Below, in pieces: positions 2,340-48,723 of a DNA stretch of 50,145 nucleotides; position 1 is the first letter of the stretch, and every line of letters begins with the position of its first letter. The stretch lies in contig JAISCP010000099.1 of assembly GCA_031265495.1 (NCBI GenBank), forward strand, positions 1-50,145, given 5' to 3'. The notes beneath the pieces are model-generated. The model was not told the DNA's origin. It saw only the letters and a list, made by a program, of their open reading frames with translations, and ran no database searches. The position numbers and the translations under genes are program-made. Origin of the DNA: Heliobacteriaceae bacterium (GTDB lineage: Bacteria > Cyanobacteriota > Vampirovibrionia > Gastranaerophilales > Gastranaerophilaceae).

Positions 2340-3968
2340 ATGAAGTATTCTAATTATTCAGCGGTAATAATAGGCAGCGGTATAGCAGGGCTTTATGCAG
2401 CGCTAAAAATCCGGCAGCAGGTAAATCTGCCGGACGGTTTGCTCTTAATCACCAAATCAAAACTGGGTGAAAGCAATTCGCGGTATGCGCAAGGCGGTAT
2501 GGTCGGAGTTATGAAGGAAAACCATGCAGATTCCACGCAGGCGCACATTTCGGATACGATTAAAGCGGGCGCGGGTTTAAGCGAGTTCAATACCGTAAAA
2601 TTTGTTTCCGAAAAATCCGACATGGTGATTAGAGACTTGCTGGAATTCGGCGTTGAATTTGATAAAGATGAAAACGGCGAATTCATGTACACACTTGAGG
2701 CGGCGCACAGCGTCAACCGTGTTCTTCATTCGGGCGGAGACGCCACCGGAAGGATGATTGAGCGAGCTTTATGCGAAAAAGTAAAAGAAAATCCGGACAT
2801 AGATGTTTACGAAAAGACTATGGCTGTTGAACTGCTGGTTAATTCCGAATGCAGAGGCGTTATTGTGTTCAACGAAATTACACAGGAATACGAGGTTATT
2901 TATTCATCATGCGTAATCCTTGCCACAGGAGGAGCGGGACAGCTTTACAGATACACAACAAACCCCGCCGGAGCGTCTTCGGACGGAATTGCGCTGGCTT
3001 ATAAGGCAGGGGCGGTGTTGCAGGATATGGAATTTATTCAGTTTCACCCAACGGCGCTTGCAATTGATACGGAAGAACATCTGTTTTTAATAAGCGAAGC
3101 GCTCAGAGGCGAAGGCGCCAAACTTGTCGATAGTGACGGGCGGGAATTTATGTATAAATATCATGAATTAAAAGAGCTTGCTCCGCGTGATGTAGTAACC
3201 CGTGCAAATTTCAACGAGATGATTGACAAGAGTAATGTTTACCTGAATGCAACCTGCATTGACAGCGGGAAACTGGCAAAACGTTTCCCGAATATTTCCC
3301 GGAAATGCCTGGAATACGGCATAGACATTTCAAAAGATTTTATTCCGGTAACGCCTGCCGCACACTACTTTATGGGCGGGGTTAAGACAAACCTTAACGG
3401 TGAAACTTCCGTAAAAAGACTGTTTGCAATCGGCGAAACTGCGTCTACGGGCTTGCATGGAGGAAACAGGCTTGCCAGCAACTCTCTGCTGGAGTGTGCA
3501 GTGTGCGCTTACGCCATAGCAAAACACCTGAAATCACAGGAGTTAAAAAGTCCAAAGCAAATAGACAAAAAAATTAAAGCCCATATTGATGAATATTCTG
3601 ACGAAGCAGTATTCCTTGAGGAAATTGATATTGAAATTCCGCGTAAAGAATTACGGAACATTATGTGGGAATACGCGGGAATTCTGCGCAGCGAAAAATC
3701 TCTGGTAAAAGCGGCGCAGGAGCTGGAAAAACTAAGATGTAATTTCCCGCGCGGCAGCAAATGCCTTAATATTGAAGAATATGAATTACGGCACATGATT
3801 TGCACGTCAGGTTTAATTATTAACGCCGCGCTTGCCCGTAAAGAATCACGCGGAGCGCACTTCCGGTCGGATTACCCGCAGACAAACGAGGAATGTATCC
3901 ACAGTATTGCCTGCTCGGGTGAAAACATTGAACTTCCGGCTTCAAAGGAGGAAATTTTTGTTAAATAA
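2340..3968 (+). CDS. nadB: L-aspartate oxidase (NadB)
   Basis: FAD-dependent L-aspartate oxidase, the first enzyme of bacterial de novo NAD synthesis, making iminoaspartate for NadA. Sequence support: the Rossmann motif VIIGSGIAGLYAA at the N-terminus, SRYAQGG, the FAD/succinate-oxidase-like block HSVNRVLHSGGDATGR, FIQFHPTAL, EALRGEGA, APRDVVTRA, TPAAHYFMGGV and GLHGGNRLASNSLLECAV. These are the expected order for NadB, with the C-terminal helical domain present. The track start at 2295 gives 15 extra residues read from a dispersed repeat whose ggagagg mimics a Shine-Dalgarno; I prefer the ATG at 2340, which puts the FAD motif at residue ~12 as in relatives. It overlaps nadC. No nadA gene is in the window. 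Confidence 0.95.
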   Translation: MKYSNYSAVIIGSGIAGLYAALKIRQQVNLPDGLLLITKSKLGESNSRYAQGGMVGVMKENHADSTQAHISDTIKAGAGLSEFNTVKFVSEKSDMVIRDLLEFGVEFDKDENGEFMYTLEAAHSVNRVLHSGGDATGRMIERALCEKVKENPDIDVYEKTMAVELLVNSECRGVIVFNEITQEYEVIYSSCVILATGGAGQLYRYTTNPAGASSDGIALAYKAGAVLQDMEFIQFHPTALAIDTEEHLFLISEALRGEGAKLVDSDGREFMYKYHELKELAPRDVVTRANFNEMIDKSNVYLNATCIDSGKLAKRFPNISRKCLEYGIDISKDFIPVTPAAHYFMGGVKTNLNGETSVKRLFAIGETASTGLHGGNRLASNSLLECAVCAYAIAKHLKSQELKSPKQIDKKIKAHIDEYSDEAVFLEEIDIEIPRKELRNIMWEYAGILRSEKSLVKAAQELEKLRCNFPRGSKCLNIEEYELRHMICTSGLIINAALARKESRGAHFRSDYPQTNEECIHSIACSGENIELPASKEEIFVK

Positions 3969-41076: not shown

Positions 41077-41550
41077 TCACGTATTTACAAATCCGCTGCT
41101 CTCAAGTTCTTCATTAAATTGCTCATAAGTACACTGCATATCGGCATTTTGCGCATATTCCATAAATTCTTCATGTTCTACACCTCTGCCGTTACAAATA
41201 TTTTTTATTGAATCGACAAACTGTTGTCCTACTGAATGTTGCTCGGGCAAGTTATATTTAGCTATTTTTTCCGTGAAAATTCCATATTCCGATAAACCTT
41301 CGAGATAATAAGCGGAGCCGTGTATGCTGCCAATGCTATTATCAATACAAAGCGGCACATCAGGCAGTTCTGCCAGTTCAGCCTCAGCAGCTTTGAACTC
41401 ATCTACAAGACCTTCTTTTTCAAGACGCTCCATCATGTAAGGATCAACACCTTTGACGTATCGTGCGTACACATCTTTATAAGGTTCACCGTATTTAAGA
41501 GTGACGAAATAAGCGCCGAAATTTTGATTGTTTATGCTGTTAATTTTCAT
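41077..41550 (-). CDS. FGA-type hypothetical protein, paralogue A
   Basis: A 157-residue protein opening MKINSINNQNFGAYFVTLK. It is closely related to the next gene: both share YVKGV.P.MME.LEKEGL.DEFKAAEAELA.LPDVPLCID and GQQFVDS.KNICN. No signal peptide or TM segment and no domain of known function. Short N-terminal FGA starts of this kind recur in this organism's hypothetical proteins. Its 3' end nearly meets the reductase gene (convergent, 4 bp gap). Confidence 0.75.
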   Translation of the reverse strand: MKINSINNQNFGAYFVTLKYGEPYKDVYARYVKGVDPYMMERLEKEGLVDEFKAAEAELAELPDVPLCIDNSIGSIHGSAYYLEGLSEYGIFTEKIAKYNLPEQHSVGQQFVDSIKNICNGRGVEHEEFMEYAQNADMQCTYEQFNEELESSGFVNT

Positions 41551-46763: not shown

Positions 46764-46791
46764 TTGTAATATTTTTTGTTTGCGGTAATAT
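46764..46791 (+). promoter_or_regulatory. promoter ahead of the Trp-codon leader ORF
   Basis: TTGTAA (46764-46769), 16-bp spacer, TAATAT (46786-46791), with transcription expected to start at ~46798, just before the leader ORF's Shine-Dalgarno. Confidence 0.55.
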
Positions 46792-46815
46792 AAAAATAAA
46801 AAAGGAAATATTTTT

Positions 46816-46863
46816 ATGTCAAACTTTAAATTCAATTACCAATCTTGGTGGCGCCTGTTATAG
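46816..46863 (+). CDS. candidate leader peptide with tandem Trp codons
   Basis: A 15-codon ORF too short for the track: MSNFKFNYQSWWRLL, stop TAG. AAGGAA lies 8 nt before the ATG. Adjacent TGG TGG codons sit at positions 11-12, right before the first strand of a downstream hairpin, as in classical trp attenuator leaders (for example WWRTS endings). The initiation region aggaaatatttttATG closely resembles that of the downstream gene, aggaaatatttcaATG. Confidence 0.5.
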   Translation: MSNFKFNYQSWWRLL

Positions 46864-46933
46864 GAGACAGGTAGTTTGACAACATCTAAAATGCAGCGCC
46901 TGTACTCTATTGTGTGCAGGCATTTTAGACAGG
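46854..46933 (+). promoter_or_regulatory. candidate attenuator with alternative hairpins
   Basis: Region 1 CCTGT (46854-46858) can pair with region 2 ACAGG (46867-46871). Region 2 can instead pair with region 3 CCTGT (46899-46903). Region 3-4 forms GCCTG/CAGGC within a larger stem TCTAAAATGC (46885-46894) with GCATTTTAGA (46920-46929), 10 perfect bp. The last stem ends at the Shine-Dalgarno of the next gene (ACAGGAA). No long U-run follows, so control of translation rather than termination is possible. Confidence 0.45.
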
Positions 46934-46943
46934 AAATATTTCA

Positions 46944-48185
46944 ATGAAAACCGACAAAATTAACAACAATAAACCATTTACCGCAAATATAGGCTTGGGA
47001 CTTCAGGCAGCAAGTAAAATCGTTGCAATTCAGGAAGGCGGCGCAGGTTTATCAAATATCCGATTTATTCAGGATACTGCCACAAATCTTACCCCCAGAG
47101 TGATTTTTGCCAGAAGTAAGGCGGATTTGGTTGAAAATACTTTTCTTGAATTGACTGAGTCCCTGCTTGTGTACTACTGTCCGGCATTGCTTGGCGAGAA
47201 AATTTTCAGAAAACTTTACTCTAAAAAGTTATCTCCGGCAGCAAGGAAACTCATTTCCACTCCGGCAAATGAACTGCTGAAAAGCAAAATACCGGATAAT
47301 AAGCTTCTGATGCCCGTTAAGGCTGCGCTTGCCCTGAGCTGCTTTGCAATCCCGCTTGTTGAATTCACGCTGAATTATTTCAAAAATCTGGTAACACTGG
47401 GCGCTTTCAGACAAGGGAATTTTGAAAACATTGCAAATCTTGATAAAACAAATAAAGTTGATAAAAAATTAAATCAGGAAGTCGAAAAAAGCGCAAAGAA
47501 AAACATTAAACGCGCTGCGGCAATATACGGCGGCTGTCTTGCGGCAAGCGCTCTGTTAATCAAAAAAGGCGCGGGGTCAAAGCTTCTGCGTAATGTTTCC
47601 GAAGCAATTCTGGCGCCGGGCACGAAGTTCTTTAAAGGAAAAGAAAAAAGTGAAAAATTCCTTAATAAATATTTAAGCCTTGATTTTGCCGATAACAACG
47701 GTAAATTAACCATGAGCCGCGGTCAGCTTACATCCTGCGTTCTGGTCGGCGGCGCGGGGTACTTCGGCGCCTCAAAAGACAGAGGCAGACAAAACTTCCT
47801 TGAAACGCTTTTCAGATTTCCGCTGGTAGGGTTTTATGTTATTTCCGGCCACGAACTGCCGGAAAAAGGCCTGAAAAAACTGCTTTACAAAAACGGAAAA
47901 TGCAAAGACCTGATTGATAAGAATTTGAATGTTCCCAAGCTTGATGAATTAAAACAGCTTGCGCAGGCTATTGTCAATAAGCGCGGCGGAGATTACAATG
48001 AAGTTTACAAAAAGCTTCTCAGGCAAAAGACTTTTATAGCCGGAGTTCCGTTGTTGTTCGGAATAGGCGTTATGGGATTTTTTGTTACCAAATCGTCTAA
48101 TATGTTCACAAAATTCAGGTATGAAAAAGAAAAGGCAAAAAACAGCATGTTAATGCCTGTATCGTCAAAAAGGTTTTTTACTTAA
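46944..48185 (+). CDS. hypothetical membrane-associated protein
   Basis: A 413-residue protein of no family I can name. It opens MKTDKINNNKPFTANIGLGLQAASKIV, similar in style to the FGA proteins. Hydrophobic segments include VKAALALSCFAIPLVEFTLNYF (~115-140), RAAAIYGGCLAASALLIKKGAG (~190-212), LTSCVLVGGAGYFGA (~258-272), and FIAGVPLLFGIGVMGFFVTK (~368-388), suggesting several membrane passes; the remainder is Lys-rich. AGGAA lies 8 nt upstream of the ATG. It converges with and overlaps the next gene by 8 nt. Expression may depend on the Trp leader described. Confidence 0.75.
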   Translation: MKTDKINNNKPFTANIGLGLQAASKIVAIQEGGAGLSNIRFIQDTATNLTPRVIFARSKADLVENTFLELTESLLVYYCPALLGEKIFRKLYSKKLSPAARKLISTPANELLKSKIPDNKLLMPVKAALALSCFAIPLVEFTLNYFKNLVTLGAFRQGNFENIANLDKTNKVDKKLNQEVEKSAKKNIKRAAAIYGGCLAASALLIKKGAGSKLLRNVSEAILAPGTKFFKGKEKSEKFLNKYLSLDFADNNGKLTMSRGQLTSCVLVGGAGYFGASKDRGRQNFLETLFRFPLVGFYVISGHELPEKGLKKLLYKNGKCKDLIDKNLNVPKLDELKQLAQAIVNKRGGDYNEVYKKLLRQKTFIAGVPLLFGIGVMGFFVTKSSNMFTKFRYEKEKAKNSMLMPVSSKRFFT

Positions 48186-48723
48186 TCAAGACTTTATCTT
48201 TGTACTGTTCAACCTGCTTATGGTCCAGCCTTAAAAGACCCGGCCGGACAAATTTCTTTATAATAACATTTTCCACAAAACGGTCTATGGGGTTAATTGC
48301 TAAGGCGAGCGCGGCAAAGCCTCCGATAGTTTTCAAAGTGACCGCTTTTTTATGTTTAACTTTTTTGGGTGTAAGCCGTGATACGATTTGCTGGCCGGTA
48401 AAAACAGCGGTAGTCGGCAGGATAAGGCCGGATAAAGCCTGAAAAATAGCTTGCTGTGTTCCGCGATAACCGTTTGGGTTATACAGCGTTTTATCGTTTT
48501 TATATTTGTCGTAAATATCCGCGCCAAAATACATCATAGTCGGAAACCACAGCAGTGTTCCGAGTTTGGGAGCAACGGGGTTTATTGCTGCGCCTATTTC
48601 GTTTGTATATGATAATCCGCGCAGCGGCCATCGTGTTAAAGGGTCAACGTATGCGGGTTCTTCTTTTTTTTGTTCGAATTTGGCTGTATAATCTTTAAAA
48701 TCAACCGGGGCTATTCCTGACAA
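48178..48723 (-). CDS. hypothetical membrane-associated protein
   Basis: A 181-residue protein beginning at TTG (MSGIAPVDFKDYTAKFEQKKEEPAYVDPLTRWPLRGLSYTNEIG). AAAGGAG lies 13 nt upstream, a long spacing. Hydrophobic stretches LGTLLWFPTMMYFGADIY, AIFQALSGLILPTTAVFTG and TIGGFAALALAINPIDRFVENV suggest two or three membrane segments. The composition resembles the convergent gene at 46944-48185 (Lys-rich ends, LTP/K motifs), so the two may belong to one process; that is only suggestion. Confidence 0.7.
   Translation of the reverse strand: MSGIAPVDFKDYTAKFEQKKEEPAYVDPLTRWPLRGLSYTNEIGAAINPVAPKLGTLLWFPTMMYFGADIYDKYKNDKTLYNPNGYRGTQQAIFQALSGLILPTTAVFTGQQIVSRLTPKKVKHKKAVTLKTIGGFAALALAINPIDRFVENVIIKKFVRPGLLRLDHKQVEQYKDKVLIK

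Follow-up and report, generated by a model that had tools for sequence, protein, structure and literature searches.

A conserved, probable tryptophan-codon attenuator precedes the gene of a tryptophan-free, predicted membrane protein in Gastranaerophilales

In Actinobacteria, classical attenuators with tandem UGG codons have been described upstream of trp operons and of trpS, and such attenuators have long been known in Proteobacteria (PMC1262725); the view in 2010 was that leader peptides were known from those two groups only and, newly, from Firmicutes (PMC2965389). For the Met operons of Actinobacteria, no RNA elements were found, with S-box control operating elsewhere (PMC1262725). The leader described here shares with the enterobacterial trp operon attenuator and with the classical attenuators predicted for Actinobacteria (PMC1262725) a short ORF with tandem TGG codons, segments 1 to 4 and mutually exclusive 2:3 and 3:4 pairings, with a U-run terminator in most members. 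However, it belongs to a different phylum and precedes the gene of an orphan, predicted membrane protein rather than trp genes or trpS, and in one class of relatives (class B) the leader ORFs apparently begin leaderless transcripts. Biosynthetic enzymes use little of their cognate amino acid (Fasani and Savageau, PMC4209129), and the present case is similar in that genes required when an amino acid is scarce make little use of it; here, in contrast, the purge is near total (more than 100-fold for Trp), affects a protein not assigned to any known biosynthetic family and is accompanied by a sister clade in which another leader goes with the depletion of another amino acid. Like T-box riboswitches, which precede genes for amino-acid transporters and tRNA synthetases, the leader would read tRNA charging and control starvation genes, but its sensor would be a translated leader ORF. 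An Rfam scan of the leader retrieved neither a trp leader family nor a T-box, only two weak, unrelated matches with E values of up to 5. Mazel and Marliere are said to have described, in 1989, a sulfur-sparing alternative phycocyanin of Calothrix, an isoform with little of the limiting amino acid that is made during shortage; such an isoform is what the two systems have in common, whereas the regulation by a leader peptide and the protein family are different here. A literature search to which subscription journals did not belong found no report of amino-acid attenuation for Melainabacteria or their phylum, which is weak evidence; within the literature searched, classical amino-acid attenuation is thus new for this phylum, and it is tied to an orphan protein in auxotrophs and not to biosynthesis.

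The window, by which we mean the whole stretch of 50,145 nucleotides that was analyzed (contig C111), comes from a 2.05-Mb genome that is 95% complete and whose closest named relatives are Candidatus Gastranaerophilales MAGs. The features of the leader and of the gene behind it are as follows.

46764 to 46791, plus strand: probable sigma-70-type promoter, TTGTAA - 16 nt - TAATAT, read from the sequence
46802 to 46808, plus strand: Shine-Dalgarno sequence of the leader ORF, AAGGAAA
46816 to 46863, plus strand: leader peptide ORF, ATG start, 15 codons MSNFKFNYQSWWRLL, stop TAG (46861-46863)
46818 to 46882, plus strand: stem TGTCAAACT/AGTTTGACA (46818-46826/46874-46882), predicted by folding to occlude the start of the leader as long as it is not being translated
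46846 to 46851, plus strand: regulatory codons TGG TGG
46853 to 46859, plus strand: segment 1, pairing with segment 2
46866 to 46872, plus strand: segment 2, partner of segment 1 or 3
46885 to 46892, plus strand: 5' arm of the outer stem, at the place of a covarying 12-bp outer stem in class A relatives
46898 to 46905, plus strand: segment 3, partner of segment 4 (terminator or sequestering hairpin) or of segment 2
46914 to 46921, plus strand: segment 4
46922 to 46929, plus strand: 3' arm of the outer stem with the degenerate U-run AUUUUAGA, from sequence and folding
46931 to 46936, plus strand: Shine-Dalgarno sequence of the controlled gene, AGGAAA
46944 to 48185, plus strand: controlled gene, encoding a predicted helical membrane protein of 413 amino acids without Trp

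The elements listed in the preliminary description, a Shine-Dalgarno sequence downstream of a probable promoter, a 15-codon ORF with TGG TGG, hairpins 1:2 and 3:4 and a competing 2:3 pairing, are all present, and the leader region folds with a z score of -4.57, none of 200 shuffles being equally good. Segments 2 and 3 are able to pair as GAG-ACAGG/CCTGT-A-CTC, and TGGTGGNNNCTG...ACAGG occurs a single time in the genome. In relatives, boxes resembling TTGAC(A)-N16/18-TATAAT occupy the position of the probable promoter, and two short-type relatives carry, in the same place, stems analogous to TGTCAAACT/AGTTTGACA with a different sequence (ATGCCAA/TTGGCAT in L002 and ATGCCAAAT/ATTTGGCAT in L134). 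The 10-bp final stem that had been described (TCTAAAATGC/GCATTTTAGA, 46885-46894/46920-46929) exists and ends one base before AGGAAA; two of its base pairs, the innermost, draw on segment 4, which makes an 8-bp outer extension of hairpin 3:4 the more apt description. The lack of a U-run noted for this stem corresponds, in the window and its genus, to a degenerate run, a point that counts against attenuation, but most relatives carry a canonical run of 5 to 8 U.

Relatives of the product were found in 101 of the 191 genomes of the window's family and fall mainly into two groups, an ortholog clade (48 to 71% identity) and a paralog clade (about 40%). Upstream DNA was inspected at 131 ortholog loci, three of which were truncated by contig ends; the 128 usable loci were drawn from two overlapping collections and represent 75 distinct leader sequences. 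At all 128 loci, TGGTGG is found inside a short ORF upstream of the gene, the stop of which lies 64 to 204 nt before the matched coding start, and the codon pair is invariant in the 75 distinct leaders. Three layouts can be distinguished. In class A, of which the leader in the window is a shortened form, an ORF led by a Shine-Dalgarno sequence mostly ends in SWQ/SWR-stop, and a U-run terminator is nested in an outer stem of 12 to 14 bp that begins at the leader stop and finishes just 5' of the Shine-Dalgarno sequence of the gene. Class B leaders read ..LNxxWWRL-stop, and at 20 distinct loci (among the L123-L153 upstream regions) a -10 box is located exactly 6 nt 5' of the leader ATG and the Shine-Dalgarno sequence is absent, so that, judging from this spacing, the leader ORFs appear to start leaderless mRNAs. 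In class C, with leaders of the WWRGLV type, GGGTTAG/ACTACCC or GCAGC/GCTGC stems take the place of CCTGT/ACAGG, the same 1:2 and 2:3 logic is kept despite the unrelated sequence, and the last stem touches the Shine-Dalgarno sequence. At class C loci L141, L145, L160, L161, L164 and L168-L172, the palindrome TATCGATATATCGATA or a near variant is present beside the leader Shine-Dalgarno sequence and is perhaps an operator for a repressor.

A MAFFT alignment of all class A leaders plus the window misaligned the 3' part, and the count of covariation was therefore based on 23 clean class A leaders, excluding the window, in an alignment built from sequence alone. In this set, 92.4% of the cells in the 1:2, outer and 3:4 stems were paired, compared to 31 to 44% in slid controls, and two-sided changes numbered 57, compared to 21.1 +/- 3.6 after shuffling (0 of 500 shuffles reached this value). 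The antiterminator pairing 2:3 was formed in 82.6% of cells, against 39 to 47% when slid. In seven sequences, U-A-U has become C-G-C at columns 27 (segment 2), 80 (segment 3) and 102 (segment 4), as is characteristic of two mutually alternative pairings that draw on the same segment 3; 2:3 and 3:4 are thereby linked. A covariance model, R1, made from the 23 leaders without the window, scores the window site at 37.8 bits, and in 117 genomes its top-scoring matches, judged by coordinates, lay upstream of the ortholog. Nine weaker full-length matches were considered as further leaders and rejected, as they were bare terminators without WW. The earlier reading of the leader as attenuator logic with a Trp signal thus stands: the Trp codons are missing from none of the homologous leaders, and pairings 1:2, 3:4 and 2:3 have all covaried.

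Equilibrium folding was unsuitable for predicting termination, and nascent-RNA states were used instead, in which the RNA ended just 3' of segment 3 and a ribosome was placed on it; such states reflect geometry and pairing, not kinetics. With the ribosome on the Trp codons, 2:3 was paired with a mean probability of 0.99 in 43 of 43 leaders, that of the window included, and this mean dropped to 0.03 when the ribosome was on the leader stop. Longer RNAs from the window always preferred 3:4 on folding, and hence the switch has to operate while the RNA is being made, as it does in known attenuators.

The product, about 400 amino acids long in the family, was modeled by AlphaFold2 as nearly all helical (pLDDT 84, pTM 0.80), with about six hydrophobic helices when counted by eye, and is accordingly predicted to be a helical membrane protein. 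That it is not the product of a trp gene, as first proposed, was borne out: no family or relative was found among Pfam, NCBIfam and PDB sequences, including any enzyme of Trp synthesis or charging, and a fold search of the PDB with the model gave no relative either (best E value 0.04, TM 0.15). The suggestion that homologues might neighbour trp genes was not confirmed, since gene-context comparison across the ortholog loci found no conserved neighbours of any kind, a lack of trp neighbours that counts against the Trp reading, and a link to the trp operon was rejected because no convincing WW leader was found in the fetched trpB and IGPS regions. Of 82 distinct orthologs, 81 contain no Trp at all, and Trp accounts for 0.003% of ortholog residues compared to 0.82% in neighbouring genes; 13% of neighbouring proteins of similar length (n = 115) lack it. 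A Trp in a TNW(L/V)PKA motif is kept by most paralogs; orthologs mostly have Leu there.

Neither indole-glycerol-phosphate synthase (IGPS) nor a full-score TrpB was found in the genome of the window. Among 97 genomes, IGPS was found in 5, a full-score TrpB in 38 and the Trp-leader gene in 44. TrpB was present in 8 of the 44 genomes with the gene and in 30 of the 53 without it (p = 1.4e-4, uncorrected for phylogeny), an anti-correlation that weakens to p = 0.011, likewise uncorrected, when only high-quality genomes are used. In the window's genus, TrpB is missing from the two genomes that carry the gene; the third genome carries TrpB but lacks the gene.

We regard it as very probable that the leader acts by ribosome-mediated attenuation, sensing charged tRNA-Trp and controlling a starvation-induced, Trp-free membrane protein. 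When Trp is plentiful, the ribosome would clear TGG TGG, reach the leader stop and mask segment 2, so that hairpin 3:4 could form and transcription would stop at the U-run terminator of most relatives; in the window's genus, 3:4 would act as a weak terminator or as a stem that abuts the Shine-Dalgarno sequence of the gene and hinders initiation. When charged tRNA-Trp is scarce, the ribosome would stall at the Trp codons and cover segment 1, 2:3 would pair, 3:4 would not form in time and the protein would be made. We infer that this protein most likely helps a mostly Trp-auxotrophic cell to survive or relieve Trp shortage, by scavenging or uptake or by a membrane function in starvation. The pairing of leader and purge points to the exact condition under which the function of this gene, which is widespread in gut Gastranaerophilales, could be found.

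The preliminary description had hinted at translational control. Under this explanation, the leader would govern access of ribosomes to the Shine-Dalgarno sequence of the gene and not termination. The degenerate U-run and the last stem ending at the Shine-Dalgarno sequence in the window, L002 and L134 are consistent with it, as are the CTTGT/ACAAGTTTTAAGGA-type final stems of class C, which touch this sequence with no obvious terminator, and the covarying 12-bp outer stem of class A, which terminates just before it. However, class A leaders for the most part, and many of class B, have strong GC hairpins with 5 to 8 U behind them, and in the window the stem leaves the Shine-Dalgarno sequence itself outside. 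Translational control is not the general mechanism and, overall, is rather unlikely; it is possible in the window's genus and in those class B and C leaders in which the final stem runs up to the Shine-Dalgarno sequence. Taken together, this is a genuine, conserved leader and very probably a Trp attenuator of classical logic; the canonical terminators of most relatives point to transcriptional control in the family at large, and the window's genus, the only one with a degenerate run, may have a weak terminator or translational control.

The peptide itself deserves consideration as well. Class B and C leaders have L-N conserved at positions -4/-3 before WW at the amino-acid level (41 distinct leaders, all six Leu codons being used), which suggests a role of the nascent peptide and which plain attenuation would not require, so that this motif counts against it within these two classes. 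A nascent or released WW peptide could then be the sensor or effector, as for TnaC or peTrpL. Nevertheless, class A peptides, that of the window included, vary around WW, the RNA pairings covary and are positioned for classical stalling, and a Trp-free product suits Trp shortage rather than excess. Furthermore, the stops right after WWRL are TAA or TAG, unlike the TGA of TnaC, and overall we consider an arrest or trans-acting peptide improbable. Even less credible is a general sensor of slowed translation, responding to antibiotics or global starvation. Leader ORFs of some resistance genes do respond to general stalling, and by analogy such a role might be imagined here, but the leader codons differ between the paralog clades, Trp in one and Met in the other, and in each clade they specify the very amino acid of which the product has been purged, which speaks against such a sensor.

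The second clade is represented in the same genome by a paralog (contig 41, L054, about 3551-3900, minus strand) with the leader MNKQMKNMDMMMSMMMDMPFSPAIIFQE-stop followed by a terminator. Leaders with at least 4 internal Met codons were found at 31 of 33 paralog loci, the exceptions being L092, with an Ile/Leu-rich leader, and L069, a weak case; because the search chose the most Met-rich ORF, single weak cases could be due to chance, but the conserved 28-codon layout could not. In most of these leaders (L054-L085), an automatic search, with a few weak rows, found a U-run terminator whose 5' arm could alternatively pair with a segment inside the leader ORF. The paralog clade contains 0.77% Met, compared to 1.42% in the Trp clade and 2.13% in the background. 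Its Cys content is also low (0.45%, compared to 1.20% and 1.30%, respectively), as it is in leaderless relatives, and may therefore not stem from the leader. MetE and MetH were both searched for and not found in the 97 genomes, and control genomes gave matches. The paralog leaders are apparent Met attenuators; no precedent for a systematic set of Met-codon attenuators was found in the literature searched. The Trp and Met leaders suggest natural gut sensors of Trp and Met shortage.

In a tree, the Trp-leader rows of Gastranaerophilales form one supported clade, and L092 is nested among Met-leader rows; its protein has 16 Met residues, compared to 1 to 6 for those rows. In other families of the class, distant homologs are likewise preceded by leader-like ORFs containing codons for Trp (L261, L278 and L279), Met (L262, L265 and L276) or aromatic residues (L268), and the purge varies among them: L278 and L279 hold 0 to 1 Trp, whereas two environmental homologs with CWWC leaders keep 7 to 8 Trp, which counts against attenuation. 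Leader-like ORFs rich in Met/Ile or aromatic residues or containing CWWC, as seen in environmental homologs L277, L268 and L263/L264, hint at further amino-acid specificities. Tentatively, this membrane-protein family of Vampirovibrionia/Melainabacteria could consist of amino-acid-specific starvation isoforms, each induced through a leader peptide with many residues of one limiting amino acid (Trp, Met and possibly aromatic or Ile/Leu) and itself depleted of it, in which case the same function would be supplied whichever amino acid is exhausted. One family with several amino-acid leaders and matching depletion is the more surprising part of this work, for which the evidence is weaker but consistent.

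The gene adjacent to the controlled gene (48178-48723, minus strand) gives a Pfam match to MTP18 (mitochondrial 18 kDa protein) that barely exceeds the cut-off, which is odd in a bacterium; homology to this MTP18-like neighbour was considered and rejected. A short N-terminal motif of the (V/S)F(K/N/T)G type recurs in unrelated proteins, namely those encoded at 41077-41550 and 48178-48723 in the window and by neighbouring genes in L094-L173; within the first 30 residues it was observed 39 times compared to 12 expected, and it is a possible sorting signal.
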